A DNA stretch of 55,173 nt from a gamma proteobacterium endosymbiont of Lamellibrachia anaximandri. GTDB lineage: Bacteria > Pseudomonadota > Gammaproteobacteria > Chromatiales > Chromatiaceae. How positions within the stretch are numbered: position 1 is the stretch's first letter; each line of letters begins with the position of its first letter. Location: assembly GCA_016756855.1 (NCBI GenBank), contig JAESPD010000022.1, forward strand, positions 1 to 55,173, read 5' to 3'. This document shows positions 8,628 to 24,571 of the stretch, piece by piece. The translations under genes were made by a program, and so were the position numbers. Below the pieces are notes generated by a model, which worked only from the letters and a program-made list of their open reading frames with translations, had not been told where the DNA came from and searched no databases.

Positions 8628-10679
8628 CTATTTTACTTTCATCCCAGGCTGCGCGCCTTCATCCGGATTGAGAATAAAGAGGTCCTTGCCGCCGGGACCG
8701 GCTGCCAACACCATGCCCTCGGAGAGACCGAAGCGCATCTTGCGCGGCGCCAGATTGGCCACCATCACCGTCAGTCTGCCCTGCAGGTCTTCGGGACGAT
8801 AGGCCGACTTGATACCGGCGAAGACGTTGCGGGTTTCGCCGCCGATATCCAGTGTCAGTTGCAGCAGCTTGTCAGCGCCCTCCACAGGATTGGCCTCGAC
8901 GATCTTTGCGATCCGCAGGTCGAGTTTGGCGAAGTCGTCGAATTCGATGGTGTCGGCGATCGGGTTTTCAGCCAGGGGACCGGCGGCCTTTGCGGGTTCG
9001 GCTGTCTGTTTTGCACCCTCTTCCTTCAAATCTTCCTTGGAGTGTTCCAGCATGGCATCGATCTGTTTTTCATCGACCCGGGTCATCAGCGGTTTGAACT
9101 TTGTGATCTGGTGTCCGGTAAGTGGCGTGGCGAGTCTGTCCCAGGTTAGCGGTTCCACCTGCAGGAACGCCTCGGACTTCTCTGCCGTGCCCGGCAGGAT
9201 GGGAGACAGATAGCCGATCAGCACACGGAACAGGTTGATGCCCATGGAACAGATGTCGTGCAGCTCCTGGTCCTTGCCTTCCTCCTTGGCGATCACCCAG
9301 GGCTGTTTCTCGTCGATGTACTGGTTGGCCTTGTCGGCAAGTCCCATGATGGCGCGCACGGCATGGCTGAACTCCCGCTTTTCGTACTGCTCCGCGATGC
9401 CCTTGCCGGCGGTAATGAATTCGTCGAACAGGGCCTGTTCGGAGAGACTGTCGGAAAGTTTGCCGTCGAAACGCTTCTTGATAAAACCGGCGCAACGGCT
9501 GGCGATGTTGACCACCTTGCCCACCAGGTCTGAGTTCACCCGCTGGGCGAAGTCTTTCAGGTTGAGGTCGATGTCGTCCACGCCGGAGCCGAGTTTGGCG
9601 GCGAAGTAGTAACGCAGGTACTCCGGATTCAAATGGTCCAGGTAGGTGCTGGCTTTGATGAAGGTGCCGCGGGACTTTGACATCTTCTTGCCGTCCACGG
9701 TGAGAAATCCGTGGGCGAAGATGGCGCTGGGGGTGCGGAAACCTGCGCCGTGCAGCATTGCCGGCCAGAACAGCGCGTGGAAATAGATGATGTCCTTGCC
9801 GATGAAATGGTAGAGCTCGGTGGTGGAGTCCGGCTGCCAGAAGGCGTCGAAGTCCAGATCCTCAGTCTTGTCGCAGAGATTGCGGAAACTCGCCATGTAA
9901 CCGATGGGGGCGTCGAGCCAGACGTAGAAATATTTACCGGGATGATCGGGAATCTCAAAGCCGAAATAGGGCGCGTCACGGGAGATATCCCACTCCTGCA
10001 GACCGGTCTCGAACCACTCGTCGAGTTTGTTGGAGACCTCTGCCTGCAGGTGGCCGCCTTTGGTCCAGCTCTGCAGCATCTCCTCGAAATCGGCCAGTTT
10101 GAAGAAGTAGTGATCCGATTTGCGCTCTTCGGGTTTGGCGCCGGAGACGGCGGAGACCGGGTTTATCAATTCGGCCGGGGAGTAGCTGGCGCCACAGACC
10201 TCGCAGTTGTCGCCATACTGGTCTTCGGCTCCGCACTTGGGACAGGTGCCTTTGATGAAACGGTCCGGCAGGAACATCTTCTCTACAGGGTCGTAGGCTT
10301 GGGTGATCTCCCGTCGCGCGATGTGTCCACTATCCCGGTTGTGTTCGTAGATGGTGGTGGCGCAGACTCTGTTCTCTTCCGAGTGGGTCGAGTGGTAGTT
10401 GTCGAAACCGACGCGAAAGGCGCTGAAATCAGCCTGGTGTTCTTCGGCAACCCGGGCGATGAGTTGTTCCGGCTCGATCCCTTCCAACCGGGCACGCAAC
10501 ATGATCGGCGTGCCGTGGGCATCGTCGGCGCAGCAGTAGATGCACTGGTTTCCACGCATCTTCTGGAATCGTACCCAGATGTCGGTCTGAATGTACTCCA
10601 CCAGGTGGCCGATATGGATCGGTCCGTTGGCATAGGGCAGGGCGCTGGTGACGAGGATTTTGCGCGGTGTGTCGTTCAT
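8628..10679 (-). CDS. metG: Methionyl-tRNA synthetase
   Basis: A 683-residue class I synthetase that charges tRNA-Met. The HIGH motif appears as [10 protein letters not shown] near residue 22 and KMSKS as [11 protein letters not shown] near 340. A four-Cys zinc knuckle ([18 protein letters not shown]) lies at about 145-162, typical of the E. coli-type enzyme. The C-terminal about 105 residues form the tRNA-binding OB domain ([20 protein letters not shown]), which drives dimerisation. Length matches the E. coli enzyme of 677 residues. In E. coli metG is divergent from apbC (mrp); here apbC lies 15.7 kb away beyond a signalling block. Confidence 0.97.
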
Positions 10680-10981
10680 CGTGTAACGGTTCCGGTGGAT
10701 CGGGTTCCAAGTTCACCCCGGCGCAGGGTGAAAGCGCATCATTGTCGCATATTTAGGTTGGAGAAAGGAGTCTGTATGGGGGATGTTCTCTCCAGCAGTC
10801 GGGCGACTTTATCGCCAGGTGTCAGGTAGTCCATCTGAGGTTATGACAACTGATTCAGTCAGAGTTGCCGGGCTGTCAGAACCAAGGCAGCTTCCGAGAC
10901 GGCCAGTCGATCTGTCTCGTTAAAGTTTCCGCTGTTCCAGTCGATTGAATGGTATAGATCCGGAAATCGTTTTTGGGTTGG
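10680..10981. other. Divergent intergenic region metG / sensor kinase
   Basis: About 300 bp between two divergent genes, so it must carry the metG promoter (minus) and that of the signalling operon (plus). I see an imperfect hairpin CAACTGATTCAGTCAGAGTTG-like around 10848-10868 but no convincing -35/-10 pair or known operator. A purine-rich GGAGAAAGGAG at 10761-10771 is not followed by a convincing gene. Confidence 0.4.
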
Positions 10982-13177
10982 ATGTATCTCTCGTCGAGAA
11001 CAGTGGAAATGCGTGTGGATTTTACTCAATTGCCTGTGCCGGCTGCCAGCGGGGACAATGTCCGACCGCTTCGGGTGCTTATTGTAGATGATGATCCCGA
11101 TTATGTGTCTGAGCTCATGGTTGCGATAACAATGCCTGTAGAGGCGTCAGCGTTGAGCATGACCTGTCAGTCTGCAGGGTCTGTGCATGAGACGATAAAA
11201 CTGATCAGGCATCAGCTATTCGATATCATTTTGCTTGGAACCACGCTTGCCGATCTGCCCACTCCCTCAGCGATATCGGTGTTGCGCAACGCCTTCGCCT
11301 ATTCACCTATTATCGCAATCTCAAAATACCCGGATGAGGCGTTGGCGTTGGAATGGGTGGAGGCTGGGGCAGATGACTGCCTCTATGAAGGGGTGATCAA
11401 CCCGCATATTCTACATAGAGTCATTACCTATGCAGTCAAGCGTGCGATTACCTACAGGGAATTGCACCAGAAAAGTCAGAACCGGCATATTATCAATGAA
11501 CTGCTCAATCTGTCATTGCAGGATCTTCCTCTGGACGAACTGCTGCAGCGGTGCCTGGAGATCATCCTTTCAGCCCCGTTTGCCGAGATTCAGAACAAAG
11601 GTGGTATCTTCCTGGCGGATGAAGAGCAGCAGATGCTGCATCTTGTGGCCAAGTCTCAACTGGAAGAAAAAATCGCAATAATGTGCAACCAAGTGTCTTT
11701 TGGCACCTGTCTCTGTGGTAGAGCCGCTGAACAGAAGCAGCTGGTCCATGCCAAGTGTGTCGATGAAAGGCATGAAATCCGCTTTGAAGGCATGCAGGAC
11801 CATGGTCACTACTGCGTGCCGATTGTTGCGAAGGATACTGTCCTTGGTGTGCTCGTACTCTACTTGGACCAAGGACATACCGTCACTGACGATGAGCATG
11901 CTTTTCTTAATGGTGTTGCCAGTACGCTGGCAGGCATTATTCAGCATGGGCGGACGCAGGAACAGCTTGTCAAGATGCACAATCAGAACAGTGCATTGCT
12001 CGCCTCCATCAAAAGCATCCTGATCGGGGTGGACAATGATGACTGTATCAGCCATTGGAATGGGGCAGCGGAGGCCTGTTTTGGCCTTTCTGCCGAGCAG
12101 GTCATGGGGCGGCGGATTATGGAGATCGGGATCAAGTGGGATTGGGAAAAGATGTTGCAGAACATTCTCGCGTGTATGACCGAACCCTATGAAACAAGGC
12201 GCTTTGATGCCAGATTTGAACACGCTGAGGGTATCAATGGCCTGCTTTCTGTTGTGGCGACCCCCTTTATGGACCCGGGTGGAGTGCACACGGGTTTTTT
12301 GTTGATCGGAGATGATGTCACCGAACAGAAGAGCAGGGAGAGTCGTCTGCAGCAGGTGCAGAAACTGCAGTCGATTGGACAGTTGGCTGCAGGCATTGCT
12401 CACGAGATCAATACGCCCATCCAGTACGTTGGGGACAATGTACGTTTCTTACTGGAAGCGTTTGAGGACATAAATCGCGTCATTGACCAAGGACGGGTGA
12501 TTTTCTCCGAAGCAAAGGAGAGTGCCGTTTCGCTGAAGGCTCTGCAGAAAGTGGAACAGATGATGGAAGATATCGATCTGGATTACCTGCAGGAGGAGAT
12601 TCCCAGCGCTATTGAGCAGACTCTGGGAGGTATCAGCCGGGTGGCCGATATCGTCCGCGCGATGAAAGAGTTTTCCCATCCGGGATCGGAGAAACGGGTG
12701 GCCACCGATATCAACCGCGCCATTGAAAGTACCATCACGGTTTCCCGCAATGTATGGAAATACCAGGCGGATGTCGTGACCTCTTTCGATGATTTCCTGG
12801 CTTCTGTGCCCTGTATTGCCGGCCCTTTCAATGAAGTGATTCTTAATGTCATCGTCAATGCAGCCCATGCGATTAATGATGTTGTTGGTGATGGATCAGA
12901 CGGCAAGGGAGTGATAAAAGTGTCAACAAAGTGCTTGGATGATTGGGTGGAGATACGTGTCAGTGATACAGGAACTGGCATACCCAAGGATGTTCAGCCC
13001 CATGTATTCGATCCCTTTTTTACCACTAAGGAAGTGGGGGAGGGAACAGGACAGGGTTTGGCGCTGAGTCATGACATTATTGTGGGCAAGCACGAAGGCG
13101 AGTTCACGTTCGAGACCGAAATTGGAAAGGGCACCACATTTATAATTCGGCTGCCACTGATAGAGGAAGGTGGTTGA
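10982..13177 (+). CDS. Hybrid sensor kinase: pseudo-receiver, GAF, PAS, HisKA/HATPase
   Basis: About 731 residues, cytoplasmic. Order: receiver-like domain (about 28-150), GAF (about 175-325), PAS (about 330-455), then histidine kinase with the phospho-acceptor at about His474 in AAGIAHEINTP. The ATP-binding domain shows EVILNVIVNAAHAIND, VSDTGTGIPKD, VFDPFFTTKEVGEGTGQGLAL. The receiver keeps the acidic pocket (LIVDDDPD), but the phospho-acceptor Asp is Gly (DIILLGTTLAD, codon 11237-11239) and the conserved Lys is Glu, so it should not be phosphorylated. The kinase half closely resembles the kinase at 13788-15158. Starts possible at TTG 10973, ATG 10982 or ATG 11009; none has a strong ribosome site. 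First gene of the H-NOX group. Confidence 0.88.
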   Translation: MYLSSRTVEMRVDFTQLPVPAASGDNVRPLRVLIVDDDPDYVSELMVAITMPVEASALSMTCQSAGSVHETIKLIRHQLFDIILLGTTLADLPTPSAISVLRNAFAYSPIIAISKYPDEALALEWVEAGADDCLYEGVINPHILHRVITYAVKRAITYRELHQKSQNRHIINELLNLSLQDLPLDELLQRCLEIILSAPFAEIQNKGGIFLADEEQQMLHLVAKSQLEEKIAIMCNQVSFGTCLCGRAAEQKQLVHAKCVDERHEIRFEGMQDHGHYCVPIVAKDTVLGVLVLYLDQGHTVTDDEHAFLNGVASTLAGIIQHGRTQEQLVKMHNQNSALLASIKSILIGVDNDDCISHWNGAAEACFGLSAEQVMGRRIMEIGIKWDWEKMLQNILACMTEPYETRRFDARFEHAEGINGLLSVVATPFMDPGGVHTGFLLIGDDVTEQKSRESRLQQVQKLQSIGQLAAGIAHEINTPIQYVGDNVRFLLEAFEDINRVIDQGRVIFSEAKESAVSLKALQKVEQMMEDIDLDYLQEEIPSAIEQTLGGISRVADIVRAMKEFSHPGSEKRVATDINRAIESTITVSRNVWKYQADVVTSFDDFLASVPCIAGPFNEVILNVIVNAAHAINDVVGDGSDGKGVIKVSTKCLDDWVEIRVSDTGTGIPKDVQPHVFDPFFTTKEVGEGTGQGLALSHDIIVGKHEGEFTFETEIGKGTTFIIRLPLIEEGG

Positions 13178-13239
13178 GTCAGTGAATGAAAGAGACGGAT
13201 TGTTGATCCCCCATTGAAAAAACTGTTGGAGAAGTAAGC

Positions 13240-13782
13240 ATGAAAGGTATCGTATTTTCTGAGTTTTTGGAGTTCGTTGAACAGCAGTTTGGGGCTGATT
13301 TTGTAGATGACATGATCGAACTCGCTGACCCCGCCTCCAGAGGTGCCTACACATCCGTTGGTACCTATGATCATAAAGAGATTATACAACTCGTTGTTGC
13401 TCTCAGCGAGCTGACAAAAATACCGGGATCTGACCTCGTTGTGATTTTCGGAAAGCATCTTTTTGGCCGCCTGGCGGCCACCTACCCACAATTGCTTGAA
13501 GGTGCTGAAACCCTGTTCCCCTTCCTGCAGAGTATCGAGAATCACATTCATGTCGAGGTGCGAAAGCTCTACCCTGATGCAGAGTTGCCACAATTCACTT
13601 GCGACTTTCCGGGGCCAAGACAGATGTCAATGACATACCACTCCAAGCGGCCCTTTGCTGATCTTGCTCAAGGGCTGATAGAGGGGAGTTTGGATCACTT
13701 CAATGAAGATATCACTATCGAGCGAGAGGAACTCCCTGTTGTTGATGGTTTTTCAACACGCTTTCTATTGACCCGGCAGTGA
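13240..13782 (+). CDS. hnoX: H-NOX heme nitric-oxide sensor protein
   Basis: A 180-residue stand-alone heme-nitric oxide/oxygen-binding domain. It begins MKGIVFSEFLEFVEQQFG, the family opening. The proximal heme ligand is expected at His104 in IHVEVRKLYPDA, and the propionate-binding Y-x-S-x-R motif is Tyr133-Ser135-Arg137 (TYHSKRP). No Tyr stands at the distal position near 140 (Ala in PFADLA), so it should bind NO rather than O2. Bacterial H-NOX proteins control a neighbouring histidine kinase; here kinases lie on both sides. Start ATG is preceded by GGAGAAG at about 13228. The stop is 5 bp before the next kinase. Confidence 0.93.
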   Translation: MKGIVFSEFLEFVEQQFGADFVDDMIELADPASRGAYTSVGTYDHKEIIQLVVALSELTKIPGSDLVVIFGKHLFGRLAATYPQLLEGAETLFPFLQSIENHIHVEVRKLYPDAELPQFTCDFPGPRQMSMTYHSKRPFADLAQGLIEGSLDHFNEDITIEREELPVVDGFSTRFLLTRQ

Positions 13783-13787
13783 TTCCA

Positions 13788-15158
13788 ATGAATCAAGTCG
13801 AACGCTTTGCCCGCCGCTGTGAAAGGGAACGCTCGGCACGCAATCAGGCGGAAAGACTCCTCGAAGAGAAAAGTCTTGAGCTCTACCATGCAAATGTAGG
13901 GTTAAAGCAACTGGCCAGAGATTTGGCAGAGAAGGAGCAACGCAGCAGTTCCATTCTGGATGCCGCAGTGGATGGCATTGTGACTGTGGATGAACAGGGT
14001 CGAATCGATTCGTTCAATCATGCAGCTGAGATGATCTTTGGTTGTTCGCAGAAAGAGGCAATAGGGCTTGATTTTAGTCTATTCATGGAAAGTGATGAGA
14101 TGAACGGGGGATCCATCGGTGATCTGTCGGTCGGTGTTTTGGGTAACAGGACGATGATCCGTGAAATCAATGGAAAGCGCAGTGATGAAACAATCTTCCC
14201 CATGGACTTGGCTCTCAGCGAGACGTATCTTGGCGAACGCAGGTTGTTGATACTGGTGATCCGGGATATCAGCCAACGCAAACAGGCGGAGCTGGAGCGT
14301 GTAAAGATGGAACTACAATTGCGACAGGCACAGAAGCTCGAGGCTATTGGTCAACTGGCAGCGGGCATTGCCCATGAGATCAACACGCCGACGCAATTCG
14401 TGAGTGATAACACCAGTTTCCTGCAGGATGCTTTTCAGGATATCAAAAAATTGTGTGGCTTTCGCCATCGCGTGATTGAGGCAGTTGAAGCCGATACGCT
14501 TACCCCGGAGCTGATCGAGACGGCGAAGGCTGTTGCAGATGATATCGATATCGACTATCTCCATGATGAGATACCCGAGGCGATCGAACAGTCACTGGAA
14601 GGGTTGCGGCGAATCAAAAAGATCGTCGGGGCGATGAAAGAATTTTCTCACCCCGGGACCGAAGAGAAAAGTTGTATCGATATCAACCAAGCGATTCGCA
14701 GCACCGTGGAGGTTTCCCGCAACGAGTGGAAGTACTTTGCAGAGATGGTGTTGGAGCTGGATCCGGCGTTGCCAGCCACACCCTGTCTGCCGGGAGAACT
14801 GAATCAAGCCATTCTGAATCTTATCGTTAATGCAGCTCATGCCATCGAAGACCAGGCAGAGGATGATTCAGATAGCCTGGGAACTATAACTATTAGAACC
14901 TTGAAACGCGATGAACGTGTCGAGATCAAGGTCACTGATACGGGCTGTGGTGTTTCTGAGGATATCAGCGGCAGAATTTTTGACCCATTTTTCACTACCA
15001 AGCAAGTGGGAAAAGGCACTGGACAGGGGTTGGCAATTGCTTACTCATCCATTGTGGATCGGCATGGCGGAACAATTGGTTTGGAGAGCGAAATCGGTCG
15101 CGGCACGACCTTTACAATTACGCTTCCCGTCAATATGGCCAGTGTGAAAACAGGTTAA
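13788..15158 (+). CDS. PAS histidine kinase, probable H-NOX-associated kinase (HnoK-like)
   Basis: About 456 residues, cytoplasmic. An N-terminal coiled coil (RERSARNQAERLLEEKSLEL) leads to a PAS domain (about 45-165), then HisKA with His196 in AAGIAHEINTP and a full ATP-binding domain (QAILNLIVNAAHAIED, DTGCGVSED, FDPFFTTKQVGKGTGQGLA). Position directly after hnoX makes it the likely partner that NO-bound H-NOX inhibits, as in Shewanella and Vibrio (family knowledge). The kinase part shares long stretches with the kinase at 10982-13177 (DIDIDYLHDEIP, AMKEFSHPG), so the two are duplicates. GTG 13779 is an alternative start; ATG 13788 chosen. The REC-HDOD gene follows after 4 bp. Confidence 0.9.
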   Translation: MNQVERFARRCERERSARNQAERLLEEKSLELYHANVGLKQLARDLAEKEQRSSSILDAAVDGIVTVDEQGRIDSFNHAAEMIFGCSQKEAIGLDFSLFMESDEMNGGSIGDLSVGVLGNRTMIREINGKRSDETIFPMDLALSETYLGERRLLILVIRDISQRKQAELERVKMELQLRQAQKLEAIGQLAAGIAHEINTPTQFVSDNTSFLQDAFQDIKKLCGFRHRVIEAVEADTLTPELIETAKAVADDIDIDYLHDEIPEAIEQSLEGLRRIKKIVGAMKEFSHPGTEEKSCIDINQAIRSTVEVSRNEWKYFAEMVLELDPALPATPCLPGELNQAILNLIVNAAHAIEDQAEDDSDSLGTITIRTLKRDERVEIKVTDTGCGVSEDISGRIFDPFFTTKQVGKGTGQGLAIAYSSIVDRHGGTIGLESEIGRGTTFTITLPVNMASVKTG

Positions 15159-15162
15159 ACAT

Positions 15163-16347
15163 ATGAAAAAAAGGATTCTGTTTGTGGACGACGAGCGCGA
15201 TCTGCTCAATGGCTTGAGGCGTGCATTGCGCGGTCAGAGAAAGGAGTGGGAGATGACTTTTGTGGGCAGTGGCAAGGAGGCCCTGGAGTTGGCGGAGAGT
15301 AACCCTTTTGATGCGATAGTGACCGATATGCGCATGCCTGGTATGGATGGCGCGCAATTGTTGGAAGAACTGGTACATCTTCAACCTGATATTGTGCGTA
15401 TCGTGCTCTCTGGACAATCCGACAAGGAGATGGTGATGAAGTCGGTGTTGCCGGCTCATCAATATCTGAACAAACCCTGTGATATTGATCATCTTAAAAA
15501 CGCAATCATCCGTGCCTTTGCGCTCAGAGAGCTGATCCATGACGATAAACTGGTGGCGCTTATTTCCGGCATGGAGTCTTTGCCAAGCCTTCCCTCCCTT
15601 TATTTGAAGCTCGTTGGCATGCTGCAGGATAGTGACGTCACTGTACGGGCAGTGGGGGAGATGTTAGCAAAAGACCTCGCTATGACAAGCAAGGTTTTGC
15701 AACTGGTTAATTCCGCTTTTTTTGGTCTGGGTCGTCGCATCACGAACCCAGTGGATGCAGCCTCTTTGCTTGGCATGAATGTCATCAAGGGGTTGGTGCT
15801 CTCTATTGGTATTTTCTCCCAGTGTGATCAGAGCAAACTCCAGTCGCAGGGCTTTTCAGTCGATCGACTCTGGGCACACAGTAGCAAAGTCGCCTCCATC
15901 GCAAAGCGTATTGCCGTGGCTGAGCATGCGGAAAAGAGTGTGGTTGAGGACAGCATGCTGGCTGGTTTTCTACATGATATCGGAAAATTAATACTGGCAC
16001 TGAACTTGCCGGAGATTCTGCAGCAGTTACAGATGGCCAGTCAGGATGGAGGACTGGCTGGACTGCATCATGCAGAAGAGATGGCTTTGGGTACAACGCA
16101 TGGTGGTGTCGGTGCCTATCTGCTTGGACTCTGGGGTTTGCCAGAGGGCGTGGTGTCGGCTGTGGCCTTTCATCATGATCCCGGTGCTCTGCCGGATGCT
16201 GAATTCAGTGCGCTTACCGCAGTACACGTAGCCGATGTGTTGGCTAATGACGATGCATCGGATGGATATGATTTCGACCACGATTACCTGCAAAGACTCG
16301 GAATCGAAGATCGAATCGAAGCTTGGCGTCAACTGGCCTTGGAGTAG
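15163..16347 (+). CDS. Response regulator with HDOD output domain
   Basis: A 394-residue protein. The receiver (1-120) is complete: acidic pair in LFVDDERD, phospho-acceptor Asp in AIVTDMRMPGMDG, Thr/Ser switch in VLSGQS and Lys in YLNKPCD. The HDOD domain (about 135-335) shows LVNSAFFGLGRRI, AGFLHDIGKLI and the later AFHHDP. HDOD proteins are HD-related, mostly non-enzymatic regulators. It is the last plus-strand gene of the H-NOX group and lies 4 bp after the PAS kinase, so it is a probable phosphorylation target. What its output controls cannot be read from sequence. Confidence 0.9.
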   Translation: MKKRILFVDDERDLLNGLRRALRGQRKEWEMTFVGSGKEALELAESNPFDAIVTDMRMPGMDGAQLLEELVHLQPDIVRIVLSGQSDKEMVMKSVLPAHQYLNKPCDIDHLKNAIIRAFALRELIHDDKLVALISGMESLPSLPSLYLKLVGMLQDSDVTVRAVGEMLAKDLAMTSKVLQLVNSAFFGLGRRITNPVDAASLLGMNVIKGLVLSIGIFSQCDQSKLQSQGFSVDRLWAHSSKVASIAKRIAVAEHAEKSVVEDSMLAGFLHDIGKLILALNLPEILQQLQMASQDGGLAGLHHAEEMALGTTHGGVGAYLLGLWGLPEGVVSAVAFHHDPGALPDAEFSALTAVHVADVLANDDASDGYDFDHDYLQRLGIEDRIEAWRQLALE

Positions 16348-16395
16348 ATTACTCCCACAGTGGCGGGCGAGAGAGCAGATTCCATTTCTAACAGA

Positions 16396-18126
16396 TTAGG
16401 TGATAAGTGCCAGCTCGTCCAGTGGTTTGGGCTTGCCAATAAGGTAGCCCTGTATGAAATCCACGCCTAAGGTTATCAGTTCTTGTTTGATAGCTTCATT
16501 CTCGACAAATTCCGCAATGGTTTTTTTTCCCATGGTCTTGCCGATCTCGTTGATCGATTTCACCATGGCCCGATCTATGGAGTTTTGATCGATTTGTTTC
16601 ACGAAGGTGCCGTCTATCTTGAGGTAATCCACCGGCAGGTTTTTCAGGTAGGCGAATGAGGAGACGCCGGTACCGAAATCGTCGAGGGAAAAATAAAACC
16701 CAGCCTGTTTGAGGATTCTGATGAACTCCACGGTGCTGCTCAACTGACTTACGGCCGCTGTTTCTGTGACTTCAAAACAGAACTTCTCTGCAGGCAGTCC
16801 GGTTCGATTGAACTGATCGATGATAAACTTGAGCATCTCGGGTTTGCCTAGGGAGTGTCCCGACAGATTGATGGAACAGAGGGTGAGTCGCGCCAGACTT
16901 TGGGGGTGGTTGAGGTACCAGTTCACTGCAGTGCTGATGACCCATCGGTCCAATCGGCTGGAAAGATGGAAGTTTTCTGCTGCACTCAGGAATTCCCCCG
17001 GAGGAACGATATTGCCCTCTTCATCCTCGAGTCGGACCAGCAGTTCATAGTGCTCACCGGATTCACGGTTGTTGCCGATGGGGGTTATTGTCTGATAGTA
17101 GAGATGGAAACGGTCCTCTTCCAGAGCTGCGTTGATTCTCGATACCCACTGCATTTCACCCAGTCTTGAGGTCAGTTCCTGGTCATTTTTATTGCTGACA
17201 TGGAGTTGGTTGCGACCCTGATCCTTGGCTACATTACAGGCAGTTTCCGCAGCTCCAAACAGTGATGCGACATCCTCGCTGTTGTTGGTAACCGGTACCA
17301 GTCCTATGCTGACACTGGGGCTGAACTGTCGTTCCTCCCATTGAAAACGAAACAGTCTGATTTTGTCATGCAGAGTCTCGATGATTCGCTGTGCCTCGCT
17401 CAGTGGGCAGTCACTTAGCAGGATGCCAAAATGGTCACCGGAAAGGCGTGCCACCAAGTCGCCTCGGCGTCGTTGAGTGGAGAGTATCAGGCTGACCTCA
17501 CGTAGCAGTTCATCTCCCGCAATATTGCCACAAGTGTCGTTGATGACATGGAAATGATCCAGATCAAGATAGCAGAGTGCGTGTTCGCGGCCCTCCCGGT
17601 AGCTTGCACTCAAAGCCGACTCCATTCTGAGCTCAAAGGTGCTGCGGTTGGCCAGTCCGGTGAGAATGTCATGGCGTGACTGATAGGATAGTTTTCTGGT
17701 GAGCAGCTGTATCCGTTCGGCATCCCTCTCCCCCTGGTTTTTCATGATGAGCTGCATTTGAAAGCGTTCAACACTTTTCTGCAAGACGTCTGCCATCTCG
17801 CTTGAATCACAGGGTTTGGTCAGGAATCTAAAAACTTTACCTTTATTGACTGCATCCACTGCAGTCTGCTGATCGGCGTTTCCAGTCAGCATGACACGCA
17901 CGGTGTCAGGACTGGCTTCATGCAGTTGCTGCAGAAGTTCCAGGCCGTCCATCCCCGGCATACGCATGTCCGAAACCACCACTGCATAGGGGCTTCCGTC
18001 CGCTATCAGTTCAAGTGCCTCCCGGCCGCTGCCGGCGGTATCAAGGGTAAACCGATTACGTAAACTCCGTCGGTAGCCTTTGAGGATGAGCGGATCGTCG
18101 TCTACTATGAGAATTTTATCTTTCAT
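16396..18126 (-). CDS. Response regulator REC-GGDEF-EAL, likely c-di-GMP phosphodiesterase (HnoB-like)
   Basis: 576 residues. The receiver (1-120) has Asp in VVVSDMRMPGMDG and Lys in FLTKPCD. In the GGDEF domain (about 150-310) the signature reads SGDHF, losing Glu, so cyclase activity is unlikely. The EAL domain (about 320-570) keeps ELLVRL, INLSG, FEVTET, LDDFGTG, LKIDG, AEFVEN and QGYLIGKP, all residues needed to hydrolyse c-di-GMP. It overlaps the upstream REC/degenerate HD gene by 4 bp (ATGA), so they are co-translated, and is convergent to the REC-HDOD gene with 48 bp between. By content it matches HnoB, the EAL response regulator of the Shewanella H-NOX network. Confidence 0.9.
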   Translation of the reverse strand: MKDKILIVDDDPLILKGYRRSLRNRFTLDTAGSGREALELIADGSPYAVVVSDMRMPGMDGLELLQQLHEASPDTVRVMLTGNADQQTAVDAVNKGKVFRFLTKPCDSSEMADVLQKSVERFQMQLIMKNQGERDAERIQLLTRKLSYQSRHDILTGLANRSTFELRMESALSASYREGREHALCYLDLDHFHVINDTCGNIAGDELLREVSLILSTQRRRGDLVARLSGDHFGILLSDCPLSEAQRIIETLHDKIRLFRFQWEERQFSPSVSIGLVPVTNNSEDVASLFGAAETACNVAKDQGRNQLHVSNKNDQELTSRLGEMQWVSRINAALEEDRFHLYYQTITPIGNNRESGEHYELLVRLEDEEGNIVPPGEFLSAAENFHLSSRLDRWVISTAVNWYLNHPQSLARLTLCSINLSGHSLGKPEMLKFIIDQFNRTGLPAEKFCFEVTETAAVSQLSSTVEFIRILKQAGFYFSLDDFGTGVSSFAYLKNLPVDYLKIDGTFVKQIDQNSIDRAMVKSINEIGKTMGKKTIAEFVENEAIKQELITLGVDFIQGYLIGKPKPLDELALIT

Positions 18127-19274
18127 GTAGAAGTTACCACTACCTGGATCGGGCCAGTGATGATCTCATTTTTTTCTGATGCCTGAAGTCTGAGAATGAC
18201 CGCCTGACTCAACTCCTGGCCTTTTGCCACCAGCAATATTTCACCATGAGAGAGAATGTTTTGATCCAGTATCATCTCCGGTGCCAATCTGCTTATTGGT
18301 AGTTTCATAACTTTGACAGCCATGCTGTCATCATCACCAGCAGCCAGCGCTTTCACCAGAGCAGGATCGTAGACCTGAGGCAGGTCTTTCAGTAAGGCCA
18401 ATGCCTCTTTTTCAGTCTCCCCATGGTTTAACAGGTTATCGAAAGCGATGGCAACCTTGAGCAGTTGTCCGCCCATTACCCCTTTTTCACCCTGATTGAG
18501 TTTCTCCTTGAACGCCACAGTGCTCCCCTCGTCAGCCTGGTGTTCCACCATGGTAGCAACGGTTTCAAGCCGGGGAATGTGTTTCAACAAACGGCCGGCA
18601 ATCTGTGGATGACCCTGCACCATCGAGCGCTCTGTATCAGACAGCTCCTTGCCTGTGTTGAGTTTATCCAGTAATTCTGCCGGTAAGGTGATGCAACCGA
18701 GTTGCGACAGCATCGCCGCCAACTCATAATTCCAGCTGTCTTCCAGTGAGAGGTGTTTAACCATGGTGCGTACATGGCGTTTGATGCGAGAAGCCTGGCT
18801 GAAAGAGGTAGGATTGACCAGGCTGAGTATGTCTGTGAGCAGATCAACTGCCCCTTTCAATGTTTTTGTGATGAGTATCTTTTCCGCTGTAACCAGCCTA
18901 TATTGGCGTACACCATCAGTGATGGCCTTGTAGAGTGTATCTGTTTCTACAGGTTTGTTGAGAAAGCGGAAGATATTGCCTTCGTTGATGGCATCTATCG
19001 CCACGTTGAGATTGGCATTGCCTGTCAGCATGATGCGAACGGTATTGGGCGCTATCTGGCGGACTTTGCTGAGAAACTCAATTCCATCCATATTCGGCAT
19101 CTGCATATCGGAGATGGCTACCGCAAAGGACCCGTCATCACGCACCGCTTGAATACCGTCGGCTCCACTGGTTGCAGTCACCAGATTGAGCTTTTTCCTG
19201 AATTGCCGTTTGAAGGCATCCAGAAGATTCCTGTCGTCGTCTACGAGCAGGATTTTGTCGTTGAGTGCAGACAT
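18123..19274 (-). CDS. Response regulator with catalytically dead HD-GYP domain (HnoD-like)
   Basis: About 383 residues from ATG 19274 (MSALNDKILLVDDD); a longer open frame to 19445 adds an unlikely leader. The receiver (about 5-125) is complete (AISDMQMPNMDG, FLNKPVE). The second domain aligns with HD-GYP but has AAMLSQLGCITLP where active proteins have HDIGK, and MVEHQADEGS where HHE-x-DGxGYP is expected. Metal and substrate ligands are therefore gone. In Shewanella, HnoD is a response regulator with a degenerate HD-GYP that inhibits the EAL protein HnoB; coupling by a 4 bp overlap to an EAL gene here fits the same role. Confidence 0.85.
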   Translation of the reverse strand: MSALNDKILLVDDDRNLLDAFKRQFRKKLNLVTATSGADGIQAVRDDGSFAVAISDMQMPNMDGIEFLSKVRQIAPNTVRIMLTGNANLNVAIDAINEGNIFRFLNKPVETDTLYKAITDGVRQYRLVTAEKILITKTLKGAVDLLTDILSLVNPTSFSQASRIKRHVRTMVKHLSLEDSWNYELAAMLSQLGCITLPAELLDKLNTGKELSDTERSMVQGHPQIAGRLLKHIPRLETVATMVEHQADEGSTVAFKEKLNQGEKGVMGGQLLKVAIAFDNLLNHGETEKEALALLKDLPQVYDPALVKALAAGDDDSMAVKVMKLPISRLAPEMILDQNILSHGEILLVAKGQELSQAVILRLQASEKNEIITGPIQVVVTST

Positions 19275-19527
19275 TCGTTGTAGGCCTGTTTGTTGTGACT
19301 CCAATATGAATGTAATCGGCCGCCTGGCGGTAATATTGAGCTGCGTCAGCTGATATTTAGTAGGGTAGAGGTGGATATCATCCTTCTGTTCATCAAAATA
19401 GCTTTTATGAGATTTTGTACGTGCCTGTGAGGCTTCGAAGGGCAAGCATGCCGCCTAACTCTTATGGAATAAGGGGGCATTCGATTGGGCAGGTTACCTG
19501 ACAGCAGTGATCCTGATTAACAATTTT

Positions 19528-20613
19528 TCAGCCCTGTTGCAGGAGATCCCGCAGGTCGATCACTGCGGCATTGGCTCGTGAGATATAGGAACTCATCACC
19601 AGAGAGTAGTTGGTGACAAAACCAAAGCCGCGACCATTCAACACCATGGGGCTGAATATCGGCTGCTGAGCTGCCTCCAGTTCGCGGATGATCTGGCGCA
19701 GACTGATCAGGGCATTCTTCTTTTTCAGGATTGCCTGAAAATCGAGCTCGATGGCGTGCAGAATCTGCACCAGCGCCCAGGTTGAGCCACGGGCCTCGTA
19801 GAATACATCGTCGATCTCCAGCCAGGGGGTCTTGATCGACAACCGGTCAGGGGTGTTGGTCGACTGGGTGGCGTCCGGCTCCCCGGCGAGGTCTGTATTC
19901 ACCCGCTCCTGCCCCACACTGGCACTGAGGCGCTGCGAAAGGCTGCCGAGCCGCTTTTCGACGATGGAGAGCCAGTCTCTCAGGTTGTCTGCCCTGGCGT
20001 AGAATTGAGTGCCCTGGTTTGTTTTGCTTGAAAGGTCATTCAGATACTGATGCATGGCCTTAATGCCCTTGCGGTATTCACTTTCGGTCGCAGGGAGAAT
20101 CCAGGAGTCGTTGTTGAAGTTGAACTGAGGTTCTGAGATAGCCAGGTACTTGTTCTCAATCGATTGGGATTGAGACCGGCTCATATCATTCCGCAGCGAG
20201 CGCGCCAGATCCCGAACCTGAACCAGCGCACCAAATTCCCAGTTTGGCATATTGTCCATCCAGACTGACGGGGGAATGACATCGTTGCTCAGATAGCCCC
20301 CCGGCTTGTCCAGCAGGGTCTCGATCACGCCGATCAGTGTGGCCGCGGTATAGCTTCCTGTGGCCGGCTCCAGTTCTGGTGACAGCTGGGCACGGGTGAC
20401 CCTCTGAATATCCAGTTGCCCGGGTTCCCGACTCCAATAGGCGCTAAGGCCGAGCATGATGATCAGTAGTGTCATCATGCCGACCGTAGTGGCCCAAACC
20501 CAACCTTTTTCCCGCAAGGTCCCGGGGTGATACAGCATCGCCAGGCTTTGGAACCAAGATGTCAACTGCAGAACCAATCGCTGGAATATGCCCATTCTCT
20601 CAATCCGTGCCAT
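19528..20613 (-). CDS. DUF2333 family membrane protein
   Basis: A 361-residue protein with one membrane segment near residues 40-62 (ATTVGMMTLLIIMLGLSAYW) and a large periplasmic domain. Segments such as PGGYLSNDVIPPSVWMDNMPNWEFGALVQVRDLAR in parts and DSWILPATESEYRKGI are those of the DUF2333 family found in many gammaproteobacteria; its function is unknown. It overlaps the preceding DUF4389 gene by 14 bp, so the two form a small operon. The linkage of these two domains is known to recur; the relation to the flanking signalling genes is unclear. Confidence 0.8.
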   Translation of the reverse strand: MARIERMGIFQRLVLQLTSWFQSLAMLYHPGTLREKGWVWATTVGMMTLLIIMLGLSAYWSREPGQLDIQRVTRAQLSPELEPATGSYTAATLIGVIETLLDKPGGYLSNDVIPPSVWMDNMPNWEFGALVQVRDLARSLRNDMSRSQSQSIENKYLAISEPQFNFNNDSWILPATESEYRKGIKAMHQYLNDLSSKTNQGTQFYARADNLRDWLSIVEKRLGSLSQRLSASVGQERVNTDLAGEPDATQSTNTPDRLSIKTPWLEIDDVFYEARGSTWALVQILHAIELDFQAILKKKNALISLRQIIRELEAAQQPIFSPMVLNGRGFGFVTNYSLVMSSYISRANAAVIDLRDLLQQG

Positions 20614-20920
20614 GGGTGGCAGGTGGCACGATCACATTTGAGTTTGCATCATCTGGCCAGGCGCTGAAGGGAAAGGGGCGGTAATCACTGTTGTAGGTCA
20701 GAAACATAAGGATGCGGTAGATATAATCAGCCACCTTTTTCCCCATTGCCTTCATCGGCTCATTGGTGTTGCCGCTGACCAGCCGGAACAGTACCTGGGC
20801 GATTACCAGAGCGATCAGCACGGTTTCCGCCACGCCATAGGCAAAGCCCAGCACCAGCATACTGATGATTCGCTTCCAGGTGGATCCATCTTTCAGAGCG
20901 TCATTGATAGATTGAGGCAT
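20600..20920 (-). CDS. DUF4389 family membrane protein
   Basis: A 106-residue protein with a long hydrophobic segment at about 18-48 (IISMLVLGFAYGVAETVLIALVIAQVLF read in parts) and the family-like block FLTYNSDYRPFPFSAWPD. This fits DUF4389, small inner-membrane proteins of unknown role. It is the first gene of a two-gene operon with DUF2333 and is preceded by 169 bp of AT-rich spacer with no recognised site. Confidence 0.75.
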   Translation of the reverse strand: MPQSINDALKDGSTWKRIISMLVLGFAYGVAETVLIALVIAQVLFRLVSGNTNEPMKAMGKKVADYIYRILMFLTYNSDYRPFPFSAWPDDANSNVIVPPATHGTD

Positions 20921-21089
20921 TTGATCTATCCATTAGTTGCTTGAGAACTTTGGATATGGGGCCTTACACTTTACTTATCAATATGTAGGTGGAGAAATAT
21001 GTTGCTTCTCTGCTGAGATATTCGTGGCAGACGGAGTTTTTGATCGTCCTTGATCTATGGAATTGTGGCTGGGTGGTGGAACTGACAAA

Positions 21090-22694
21090 TCAATCAGAAA
21101 ATAGCGCCCGGATCTCCAGCAGTTCTGGAAGTGCTTCAAAAAATGTATCAACGATACCGGGATCGAACTTGCTGCCCCGATGTTCCCGAAAATAGTCATA
21201 AATCCTTTCATCATTCCAGGCCGGGCGATAGATACGATCACTGCTCAGCGCATCGAAAACGTCTGAAACTGCAACGATGCGGGAAAATATATTGATCTCA
21301 TCGGCTTTCAGTCCTTGAGGATAGCCGCTGCCATCAAAATGCTCATGATGCTGATACGCAATGATTGATGCGGTCTTGAGCATTTCCCGTTTTGATTTTC
21401 CAAGAATCTTATGGCCAAGCACGGCGTGTTCCTTCATTACTTCGAACTCCGTTTCTGTCAGAGCGCCGGGTTTATTCAATATTGCATCGGGAATACCCAC
21501 CTTACCCACATCATGCAGCGCAGCGGCCACTTTCAGCAGATTTGCCTGCTTTATATCCAGCCCATAGCGCCGGGCCATGATTCGTGAAAATTCACCCACC
21601 CGCTTTACATGAAAACCTGTTTCGTAGGATCTGGCCTCGGTTACCTCGCCAAGCGTGTAGATAATCTCATGCTGGGTGTGTTCAATCTCCTGGGTGAGAT
21701 GCAGATTTTCGAAGGCGACAGAGATATTTGTGTTGAATACCTCAATCAATTCACGGTCGACTCCCTTTGTCGATAAATTACTTCCATGAACATAGAGTAC
21801 ATGGGTCTGGCCAATGCTGTTTTGAACCTGGCAGACAAAATAATCGGAACCGTACTGATTGGCTTGTTGGCCCACCGCATCCCTGATTCGGTTGAGGTCT
21901 TCTTCTTTGAGGATTTCATCCACAGGTTCTTCAAGATGATCTGTATAGTAGCCTGTACCCGCGAGGATTTTAAAATCACTCCGCTCCTGTATCGCTGAAA
22001 AGCCATCAACCTTGGTGTAGATGGAGTGGACATCCACCCCAGACAGACTTTCAAACTGCAACAGAACACCCTGAGCGAAATTACGCAGAGACTGAAGTTC
22101 AAAGATAGAGTTTGAAGCCTGGATGATCTTTTCCAGCCCCATCTTGTTCAGTGCTATCTTTTTTCGGTTCTCTTCAATCGTGACGAGATGATCATACTCC
22201 CGCAATGAGGCGACCAGGGTGGCGTAAAGTTTCTGATCAGTAAGTTCTGACTTCTCCTTATAGTCATTGATGTCATAGTCCACAATGACCTTCTTGAGAG
22301 GGACTAAACCCGGCTGGCCGGTACGCAGAATAATGCGTACAAAACGATTCTTCAGCACATTGCGAATATGCTCAACCAGTTTCAGACCCGAGTCATCCTG
22401 CTCCATGACAACGTCAAGCAGAATGAGGGAGATGTCAGGATGCTGTTCCAGCATCTGCCTTGCTTCAACATCCGAATAGGCGTGGTGGAACTCCAGGCTT
22501 CGTCCCATAAAAGTAAAGTCACCCAATACCAGGCAGGTCACCCGGTGGACGTCGGATTCATCATCAACAATCAGTAACTTCCAGGGATCCGGTGCCTCAT
22601 CGATGGAAGAGGGTTTGGCGATATCTTCATCGACAAACAAGAGTTCATCCGATGGACTGTTGCTTTCTATGTGCATGTTAATCTCACCACTCAT
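21090..22694 (-). CDS. Response regulator REC-DUF3369-HD-GYP phosphodiesterase
   Basis: 534 residues. The receiver (about 37-165) has acceptor Asp in LILLDVVMEQDDSG. DUF3369 (about 180-330) follows. The HD-GYP domain (about 345-520) is intact: ALHDVGKVGIPDAILNKPG and HHEHFDGSGYPQG, so it should hydrolyse c-di-GMP to pGpG/GMP. It overlaps the heme-sensor kinase gene by 4 bp and is the last gene of a three-gene operon with a diguanylate cyclase, kinase and phosphodiesterase. Its receiver belongs to the same subtype as that of the cyclase (VLGD, RTGQPG, then INDYKEKSELT), so one kinase may address both. Confidence 0.93.
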   Translation of the reverse strand: MSGEINMHIESNSPSDELLFVDEDIAKPSSIDEAPDPWKLLIVDDESDVHRVTCLVLGDFTFMGRSLEFHHAYSDVEARQMLEQHPDISLILLDVVMEQDDSGLKLVEHIRNVLKNRFVRIILRTGQPGLVPLKKVIVDYDINDYKEKSELTDQKLYATLVASLREYDHLVTIEENRKKIALNKMGLEKIIQASNSIFELQSLRNFAQGVLLQFESLSGVDVHSIYTKVDGFSAIQERSDFKILAGTGYYTDHLEEPVDEILKEEDLNRIRDAVGQQANQYGSDYFVCQVQNSIGQTHVLYVHGSNLSTKGVDRELIEVFNTNISVAFENLHLTQEIEHTQHEIIYTLGEVTEARSYETGFHVKRVGEFSRIMARRYGLDIKQANLLKVAAALHDVGKVGIPDAILNKPGALTETEFEVMKEHAVLGHKILGKSKREMLKTASIIAYQHHEHFDGSGYPQGLKADEINIFSRIVAVSDVFDALSSDRIYRPAWNDERIYDYFREHRGSKFDPGIVDTFFEALPELLEIRALFSD

Positions 22695-24571
22695 TCAGGA
22701 GATTTGGGGATATTAAGAACAAACTGGACACCCTCATTCAGTTTACTTGTGACGCTGATCGTACCTTTGAGAACCGTATAGATCAGATCGTGACTGATAT
22801 GCAGTCCGAGACCACTGCTTCCTTTACCCCGGCGAGTCGTAAAGAATGGTGCAAAAACATTCTCCAGATGCCCAGGGGCTATACCTTTTCCGTCATCCCT
22901 ATAGAAAATCTGCACCATCTTATCTTCATCCAGCACTTCAAAACGTAAATGACCCACACTATTTTGTGAGTAACCGTGCACCAATGAACTCATAATTAGA
23001 TTGGTGATGACCTGTGAAAGTGCCCCCGGATAGCTTTCAAGCTCGATATCGTCAGGGCATTCAATCTCTATGTTCAATTGGGTTTTTTTCAGTTCAGGCT
23101 TGAGTGTGAGAATCACATTGTCCATGTAGGTTTTCAGATTAAAGCGGCTTTTCTGTTCACTGGCCTGATCGGCAGCAATCTGCTTGAAGCTCTTGATCAT
23201 CTGCCCGGCACGTTGCAGATTCGAGAGGATGATGGCAGTCGACTCTTTGCAGAGATCAAGATAGTTAGCCAGAGCTGAACGCGAAAGTTTGTTGTCTGCC
23301 ACAGCCTGCACAAGATCTTTCGTCTGGTTTTCCAGATAGGAGGCTGAGGTGACAGAGACGCCGATGGGTGTATTAACCTCGTGCGCAACACCCGCAACCA
23401 TGCCACCCAGAGCTGACATGGTTTCTGATCTCACCAGTGTCTTCTCCATCTCCTTGCGCAGGGTAATATCCTGAAACAGAGTCACTGTTCCGGAGAATTC
23501 CGACCCTTCAAAAATGGGTGAAGATACATAGGAGACAGGTATCGAATGGCCCTCCTGATGTTTAAACACAGCCTCATTCACACGTACGACTCCGCCGTTC
23601 TGCGTCTCCACAGTAAGAGCAGCCTGGGTGACAGACTTTGTCGAGGCTATGAAACCAGGCGCTTCCGGCGCTTCATCTGACTCATCATCCCTCAACTTCC
23701 AGTCGCGCCAACCCAGGATGCGCAGCGCCTCAGGGTTGGCAAAAGTCACTATGCCCCGTCGATCCATACTGATAACGCCTTCTCCCACCGCATTGGTGAC
23801 ACTTCTCAGGAAATGTTCACGTCCCGCCAATATCTCCTTGGTATCGTTCACCAACTGCCATTGTTGGCGCAGTTTGGAAAGCAGAAACAGCGTGGTCCAT
23901 GTCAATAGAATGAATGCCACCAGATGGATTTGAACCACCTGAGATCTTGCCGTTGACTGGGCCGCGAGAATGGGATCTGCAGGCAGGGTCACACTGATGC
24001 CTCCACGCACATCACCCACCTCATACCCCTGTTTCTCATGGCACTTCATGCAGGCTTTCTTGGTAAACAGTGGTCCCATGTAGCGGTAGACCCGGCTGCT
24101 ATCCTGCCTGATATATTCCAGAATTTCCGGAACATCATTTTCGAACAGGTTAAGCGCCTGTGACTCCCACACATCCGGCACATTATTGGGATTGATTGGT
24201 TTGAGTGATGTGATGTGAAGAAGGATCCCGCTGTTTTTTCTGGCCACATCGGCTATCTGGCGTGTCATATAGGCAGGATTCAGCTTGGTTAACTTGACGC
24301 CGTCCAGCGTCTCCACGTCCCGGTCCGGTACTTCCAGATAGGGGTTTGAAGGTGTTGATTCGCTGACTGGCACATAAACCCCTCCGTGTTGTGCATTCCA
24401 GAGTCGTGTCATCTGCACCAGTCTGAACATGCTTTGCGCCCTCTCATAGGCCAGTCTTTCGGCCATGCCGTCCAGTTCGGAGAGATTCCACAGGGCAGAC
24501 AGTAAGGAGAGACCACCCCAGAGCAGTAGAGGAAAAAACCAGTAGAATCGCCTGTATGCGACGATGTTCAT
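22691..24571 (-). CDS. Membrane histidine kinase with c-type heme Tll0287-like sensor domain and PAS
   Basis: 626 residues. A membrane helix at about 10-28, then a periplasmic Tll0287-like (DUF3365) domain with QHGGVYVP, NPYLE and the heme c motif CMKCH (Cys174, Cys177, His178). A second helix lies at about 215-235. Then come PAS (about 255-385) and a kinase with the acceptor His in VAGVAHEVNTP and ATP site QVITNLIMSSLVHG, RDDGKGIAPGH, FFTTRRGKGSSGLGLH. The heme suggests redox or gas sensing outside the inner membrane. It overlaps the cyclase gene upstream and the HD-GYP gene downstream by 4 bp each, which ties it to c-di-GMP output. Confidence 0.92.
   Translation of the reverse strand: MNIVAYRRFYWFFPLLLWGGLSLLSALWNLSELDGMAERLAYERAQSMFRLVQMTRLWNAQHGGVYVPVSESTPSNPYLEVPDRDVETLDGVKLTKLNPAYMTRQIADVARKNSGILLHITSLKPINPNNVPDVWESQALNLFENDVPEILEYIRQDSSRVYRYMGPLFTKKACMKCHEKQGYEVGDVRGGISVTLPADPILAAQSTARSQVVQIHLVAFILLTWTTLFLLSKLRQQWQLVNDTKEILAGREHFLRSVTNAVGEGVISMDRRGIVTFANPEALRILGWRDWKLRDDESDEAPEAPGFIASTKSVTQAALTVETQNGGVVRVNEAVFKHQEGHSIPVSYVSSPIFEGSEFSGTVTLFQDITLRKEMEKTLVRSETMSALGGMVAGVAHEVNTPIGVSVTSASYLENQTKDLVQAVADNKLSRSALANYLDLCKESTAIILSNLQRAGQMIKSFKQIAADQASEQKSRFNLKTYMDNVILTLKPELKKTQLNIEIECPDDIELESYPGALSQVITNLIMSSLVHGYSQNSVGHLRFEVLDEDKMVQIFYRDDGKGIAPGHLENVFAPFFTTRRGKGSSGLGLHISHDLIYTVLKGTISVTSKLNEGVQFVLNIPKSPE

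Follow-up and report, generated by a model that had tools for sequence, protein, structure and literature searches.

The known systems closest to the locus treated here include three for nitric oxide (NO) signalling. In the HnoX-HnoK-HnoB-HnoD network of Shewanella oneidensis and Vibrio cholerae, kinase phosphate drives an EAL protein and frees a degenerate HD brake (PMC8846402, in the portion available). The other two are the Legionella NosP-NahK-NarR system and the direct control of diguanylate cyclases/phosphodiesterases (DGC/PDEs) by H-NOX. H-NOX poses the question of how a single small heme protein can control both histidine kinases and diguanylate cyclases. The window analysed here is a 55,173-nucleotide stretch (contig JAESPD010000022.1, assembly GCA_016756855.1) from a gamma proteobacterium endosymbiont of Lamellibrachia anaximandri. 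It contains an H-NOX gene followed by a histidine kinase gene, HK1, with response regulators and a second kinase, HK0, around them. The N-terminus of HK1 carries a 46-residue segment that is very tightly linked to H-NOX. A previous sequence-only reading described the genes and residues of this locus correctly but overlooked the segment, which is its most general feature.

The N-terminal segment and its spread beside H-NOX

Aligned relatives of HK1 share an N-terminal stretch ahead of the PAS domain, with a consensus of approximately L-x-R-R-L-x-R-E-R-x-A-R-K-x-A-E-x-L-L-E-x-K-S-x-E-L-Y-x-A-N-x-x-L. No Pfam family covers it. A model built from seven seeds was searched against 13,212 stop-to-stop frames, and no match was found outside H-NOX-adjacent genes at E ≤ 1e-3. 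The HK1 segment is the sole match in the window genome at E ≤ 1e-4.

The named loci are the best 80 of 494 confirmed, picked by H-NOX alignment as nearest to the window H-NOX. The gene after H-NOX carries the segment in all 80 (76 of 76 when the four seed loci are set aside), and its distance from H-NOX is mostly less than 50 bp, with a maximum of 296 bp. By record title, the hosts belong to Pseudomonadota, Bacillota (Paenibacillus and kin), Verrucomicrobiota, Planctomycetota, Nitrospirota, Bacteroidota, and others. The partner proteins are kinases, with HATPase_c in 65 loci, or GGDEF proteins (14 loci, 12 of them with EAL), and in one locus a nucleotide cyclase. Only R15, A18, E19, and E23 are fully invariant in the alignment of the 80 partners, and all four lie in the segment. 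Near-invariant columns are R10, E11, A14, K25, N33, and L36 of the segment and four further on. A set of 79 segments was also compiled: 106 rows yielded 97 distinct ones, 46 residues long and scoring 25 bits or more, of which 79 remained below 80% identity. The near-invariant polar residues in this set are R10 (78), R15 (77), E19 (79), E23 (78), K25 (75), and N33 (72).

In the family of the window organism, 10 of 18 H-NOX neighbourhoods examined contain the segment. On plasmids it is present in eight of 10 H-NOX loci, always adjoining H-NOX; these are 10 of 20 records, the rest being near copies by organism. The two plasmid loci lacking it come from an archaeon and a Hymenobacter. The segment is also absent from HK0, L063, and L064, close paralogues of HK1 that have no H-NOX partner. 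The idea that FIST/NosP systems also own the segment was rejected (none of 30 loci, best E 0.095), these 30 being part of the FIST loci found and not all having a signalling gene beside FIST.

The H-NOX loci of Paenibacillus, Cohnella, and Brevibacillus (L067, L068, L070, L080, L083, L085, L090, L094, L095, L106, and L119, at about 8930-10000) share a layout. A gene of about 350 codons for an HD-GYP protein ends just before H-NOX, and the segment-bearing gene follows. The available portion of PMC8738867 states that no report is known of an NO-sensing H-NOX in Gram-positives.

Co-occurrence of the segment and H-NOX across genomes

Related genomes are not independent, and the p values given here (3e-17, 2e-8, and 4e-30, in order of appearance) are a guide only. 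Among 369 gammaproteobacterial genomes, H-NOX is present in 26, the segment in 18, and both in 15 (first value). Without the eight genomes that supplied model rows, the segment is present in 10, seven of them with H-NOX (second value). Among 398 Pseudomonadota genomes, a set that shares a few members with the first, H-NOX is present in 103, the segment in 47, and both in 46 (third value). When two model genomes are removed, 44 of the 45 segment genomes have H-NOX.

The segment lies in the gene after H-NOX in 16 of 23 gammaproteobacterial cases and adjoins H-NOX in 35 of 50 cases in the Pseudomonadota set. In the latter set it is found beside 33 of 63 stand-alone H-NOX genes, versus none of 46 H-NOX matches in long open frames. 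Eight named genomes (2.4–9.5 Mb) contain one segment each, except Emticicia, which has two; the second adjoins an apparent second H-NOX.

Several placements differ from the common one. In G173 (L205 4737-6785, minus strand), the protein encoded after H-NOX bears a receiver and has the segment internally, at residues 376-418, and not at the N-terminus. Weaker segments are present in GGDEF proteins of L199 and L200 (G215 and G344), in tandem in L200, and these incomplete genomes have no PF07700 match. The unlinked segments of Pseudomonadota are mostly in PAS proteins of family f223, far from H-NOX in genomes that have it. Those with an N-terminal segment (L271 and L272, from G824 and G798, and other f223 genomes) are candidate unlinked H-NOX partners.

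The segment as a possible docking helix

On the H-NOX side, contact with partners has been mapped to helices A-C and F (PMC7108781, in the portion available). From this map and the tight association of the segment with H-NOX, we infer, with somewhat better than even confidence, that the segment is the partner-side counterpart. It would be a portable H-NOX docking helix, shared by kinases, DGC/PDEs, and a nucleotide cyclase under one clade of stand-alone H-NOX. AlphaFold prediction of the joined H-NOX/segment chain gives one 47-residue helix (mean pLDDT 87.1, pTM 0.72). The alignment behind it holds 20 of 25 in-frame pairs, excluding L027 and L151, the near copies L091 and L127, and L101 (two kinds of stop).

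A single long helix would also suit a dimer coiled coil or signalling helix of soluble kinases and cyclases that lack a sensor of their own. H-NOX would then bind elsewhere (PAS, DHp, or ATPase), and the link would reflect shared operon ancestry. The hydrophobic positions of the 79 segments recur every three to four residues, a heptad-like spacing that fits such a helix, as does the Rhodobacteraceae-like family f223, in which the segment protein is unlinked to H-NOX. The near-invariant polar residues, however, exceed the needs of dimer packing. Across 80 partner proteins with unrelated outputs, no other part is as well conserved as the segment, and it is missing from all 30 FIST loci scanned and from the paralogues without an H-NOX partner. 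The coiled-coil explanation is rather unlikely.

Other observations weigh against the docking helix. The AlphaFold run yields a helix but no contact data and was not used for docking. The count of 80 of 80 rests on loci chosen as nearest to the window H-NOX. Seven of the 23 gammaproteobacterial segments lie away from H-NOX, at 46 bits or less (two each in G215 and G344, one each in G315 and G415, and the second in G491), as do 15 of the 50 in Pseudomonadota, all below 38 bits. In the Pseudomonadota set, the segment is missing beside 30 of 63 stand-alone H-NOX genes, and 17 of 61 genomes with a stand-alone H-NOX lack it altogether at E ≤ 1e-4. L021, L022, L147, and L148 are high-scoring H-NOX loci without it.

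A conserved partner segment is not mentioned in the available portions of PMC8846402, PMC8738867, PMC12329717, PMC7108781, PMC12582929, and PMC10746521, and no titles or abstracts on one were found in the open-access literature. PMC8738867 (in the portion available) presents a Pfam-based neighbourhood network of H-NOX, which would miss the segment because it is absent from Pfam. If the docking helix is real, H-NOX partners could be read from sequence, including unlinked ones such as the Rhodobacteraceae-like PAS kinases. A shared partner-side helix would also offer a mutational test in any H-NOX system, allow the partners in each genome to be listed, and serve as a component for engineering enzymes under NO control.

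The H-NOX protein and NO context

PF07700 matches the H-NOX protein with 142 bits and nothing else in the genome, which measures 4.26 Mb. Among solved structures, H-NOX chains are the closest relatives (6ocv, 162 bits). An alignment of 10 relatives shows no change at His104, Pro117, Tyr133, Ser135, or Arg137, and residues 138-150 contain no Tyr. The protein has one Cys and thus no three-Cys zinc site. An H-NOX that lacks the distal Tyr is of the NO type. The HNOB fold, proximal His, conserved Pro, Y-x-S-x-R motif, and missing distal Tyr all bear out the first assignment as NO-type by motif, and the protein presumably senses NO.

Genes of the cytochrome cd1 type (PF02239) are present in the window genome and its five congeners, and the cell may therefore be a source of NO in its own right. 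This nitrite reductase family was rejected as the reason for the presence of H-NOX: it is found in six of six congeners and does not track H-NOX. Three FIST (NosP-type) genes are located on other contigs of the same genome (G000:C132:38837, C176:565, and C173:13413), which with H-NOX makes two kinds of candidate NO sensor. No FIST sensor adjoining a kinase, as in NosP-NahK-NarR, was found among the 10 locus genes scanned.

Locus layout and residue states

Features of the locus are listed in Table 1. The HK1 ATG is 5 bp past the H-NOX stop, and REC-HDOD starts 5 bp past HK1. The REC-HD and REC-GGDEF-EAL genes share 4 bp (ATGA), and both are convergent to the H-NOX, HK1, and REC-HDOD genes. Coordinates, spacings, and domains agree with the sequence-only reading, as does the second kinase, a REC-GAF-PAS-HK protein. 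The helix-turn-helix (HTH) regulator HnoC, likewise reported missing, was not found among 10 genes scanned in 10973-24571, the rest of the genome not being searched.

Table 1. Features of the H-NOX locus in the window
Feature	Position	Strand	Evidence
HK0: pseudo-receiver-GAF-PAS-HEINTP kinase, HK1 paralogue, without N-terminal segment	11009..13177	+	domains, residues, tree
Stand-alone H-NOX, 180 aa, NO-type by motif	13240..13782	+	PF07700, aligned residues
HK1: H-NOX-linked N-terminal segment, PAS, HEINTP-type HisKA/HATPase kinase, 456 aa	13788..15158	+	domains, tree
46-residue N-terminal segment of HK1, proposed H-NOX docking helix	13797..13934	+	profile search, alignment
REC-HDOD response regulator, 394 aa, receiver Asp and Lys present	15163..16347	+	domains, residues
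REC-GGDEF-EAL, 576 aa, candidate c-di-GMP phosphodiesterase, HnoB/NarR-like role	16396..18126	-	domains, residues
REC with degenerate HD-GYP-like domain (REC-HD), 383 aa, candidate HnoD-like regulator	18123..19274	-	domains, residues

The GGDEF, RxxD, EAL, and receiver motifs are read here in their usual meanings. All three regulators retain the receiver's acidic pair, Asp, and Lys. In the HK0 receiver, Gly occupies the expected position of the phospho-acceptor Asp, and the Lys is absent. In REC-GGDEF-EAL the GGDEF motif is degenerate (SGDHF; SDDKF in G054), with an RxxD (I-site) ahead of it, and the EAL signature residues are present. This protein is likely a PDE response regulator. The state of its GGDEF and EAL motifs and the missing Asp and Lys of HK0 were not part of the sequence-only reading. 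REC-HD matches HD_5 at 88.9 bits. It has SQ in place of HD and has lost HHE and GYP, which does not fit a catalytic HD-GYP phosphodiesterase. The SQ and the GYP loss are common to eight of eight aligned relatives, REC-HD itself counted; the neighbouring gene at 21090-22694, used as a control, keeps intact HD-GYP motifs. The NcbiFam name NosR (NF053512) was not assigned to REC-HD, the match being 218 bits against a cut-off of 400, and the NcbiFam scan otherwise gave general kinase or receiver matches only.

A second two-component pair lies at 21090-24571 on the minus strand, where a Tll0287-PAS kinase overlaps a DUF3369 regulator with an intact HD-GYP. In scans of the window, promoter-like and terminator-like sites were no commoner than in shuffled sequence. 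FNR-like boxes with two mismatches numbered 51 versus 26 expected and were spread across the window, leaving nothing usable.

Recurrence of the module and kinase tree

The module is conserved. In G120, of the same genus, all genes of the set are present at 88-97% identity. In G054, of another genus of the same family, HK1 (53%), HDOD (49%), and REC-HD (59%) run in one direction with GGDEF-EAL (53%) convergent; the orientation differs from that in the window, and H-NOX is partial at a contig end. A HEINTP kinase of at least 300 bits directly follows H-NOX in six of the 80 named loci (L075, L093, L097, L107, L115, and L130). An HDOD or REC-HD relative of at least 100 bits accompanies it in four of these, versus none of the 74 others (Fisher p 9e-6). 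The four (L075, L093, L097, and L115) are all from Planctomycetota; in Neorhodopirellula (L093), two kinases, HDOD, and REC-HD stand side by side, and the L115 stretch ends in the HDOD gene. The gene-order comparison proposed for related H-NOX loci thus finds all five genes in G120 and G054 and part of them in Planctomycetota, which argues for a real unit and not a chance cluster.

Four of the six genus members lack H-NOX. Two of them, G099 and G138, keep HDOD and REC-HD beside two related PAS kinases, with no H-NOX, segment, or GGDEF-EAL in the stretch examined, which shows that these regulators can also be paired with different inputs. The N-termini of these kinases look membrane-spanning by eye. 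The G099 HDOD gene has one in-frame stop (TAG), and G138 (L064 10908-15812) has broken extra kinase copies beside an intact kinase gene. G020 and G068 have no close relative of HK1 or REC-HD.

A tree was built from 21 kinase cores, with true HnoK absent. The HEINTP kinases, HK1 among them, make up a single clade of 15 rows (100/100) that excludes the HEINNP kinases next to H-NOX of the S. oneidensis/V. cholerae (So/Vc-like) kind. HK1 falls beside the kinases of G099 and G138, which have no H-NOX (88/84, a fork that is not firm). H-NOX adjacency requires four changes on the tree. The presence of H-NOX next door, and of the segment along with it, thus does not match the kinase phylogeny.

Proposed mechanism

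The locus is, with moderate confidence, an H-NOX-controlled two-component module in which H-NOX acts through the segment on HK1, and HK1 on three receivers. H-NOX would sense NO and contact HK1 through its N-terminal helical segment. As in characterised H-NOX/kinase pairs, NO-bound H-NOX would restrain HK1 autophosphorylation. HK1 may phosphorylate all three receivers of the cluster, with HDOD as the third target. As in the HnoX-HnoK-HnoB-HnoD scheme (PMC8846402, in the portion available), phosphorylated REC-GGDEF-EAL would break down more c-di-GMP, and phosphorylated REC-HD would relieve its brake on the EAL protein. With NO restraining HK1, and HK1 phosphate driving the EAL protein, NO would raise c-di-GMP and favour attachment. 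The signalling genes beside H-NOX probably tune surface attachment. The sequence-only reading had considered both kinases as possible H-NOX targets, which is not supported: the segment is present in HK1 only, and because HK0 lacks it, H-NOX probably acts on HK1 alone. HK0 probably brings a second signal, borne by GAF/PAS, to the same receivers.

The congeners G099 and G138, the lack of H-NOX in most of the genus, and the Planctomycete modules without a clear GGDEF-EAL partner also suit a general HEINTP module of HDOD and REC-HD with swappable inputs. H-NOX would be a recent input, HDOD the conserved output, and c-di-GMP not the main one. GGDEF-EAL, however, is retained with the H-NOX form in both G054 and G120 (96% identity in the latter). 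This explanation is possible without being favoured, and it is partly compatible with the H-NOX-controlled module. Two findings count against the latter: L107 and L130 have H-NOX and a HEINTP kinase with no HDOD or REC-HD in a 20 kb stretch, and REC-HD in a different H-NOX operon (G147) keeps HDIGK, so a dead HD is no rule.

Comparison with known systems

Like the Legionella NosP-NahK-NarR system (PMC8846402, in part), the locus has a receiver-GGDEF-EAL regulator under a kinase controlled by an NO sensor; the sensor there is FIST (NosP), and the GGDEF of the window protein is degenerate. Where H-NOX directly controls a DGC/PDE, as in Shewanella woodyi and Paracoccus (PMC8846402 and PMC12582929, in part), the partner is of another kind than the adjacent kinase here; partners of that kind among the 80 named loci (14 with GGDEF, 12 with EAL) carry the same N-terminal segment. 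On a plasmid of Pseudoalteromonas xiamenensis (NZ_CP099918), genes for HD and HDOD regulators, H-NOX, and a kinase with the segment follow one another, much as here. This locus differs in its HEINNP kinase, a distant HDOD (25% identity, 72 bits), and the lack of GGDEF-EAL in the row. Another layout, L303 1809-6100 (G147), is near that of Shewanella, with H-NOX, a segment kinase, REC-HD, and an HnoC-like REC-sigma54-Fis gene. No publications pairing H-NOX with HDOD, or combining HDOD, histidine kinase, nitric oxide, and response regulator, were found in the open-access literature.

In HnoX-HnoK-HnoB-HnoD, HnoD is a dead HD-GYP protein. The available portion of PMC8738867 calls it an inactive DGC domain. 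The window locus resembles this network (PMC8846402, in part) in its NO-type H-NOX beside a soluble kinase, its EAL regulator, and its degenerate HD regulator, and kinases beside So/Vc-like H-NOX also bear the segment (L172, L236, and L237). These coinciding roles would suit a plain copy of the Shewanella/Vibrio network, which is nevertheless improbable. The HK1 core belongs to the HEINTP clade, outside the HEINNP kinases, in a comparison without true HnoK, HnoB, or HnoD sequences. The EAL regulator has an extra degenerate GGDEF, and the 10 genes scanned include no HnoC-like HTH regulator. The Shewanella-type roles first proposed therefore stand by domain content and residues, with HDOD in addition, and orthology is not supported. 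The locus works like the Shewanella network but is no copy of it; beyond the known H-NOX networks it has an HDOD arm and a further kinase, and it occurs in more than one phylum.

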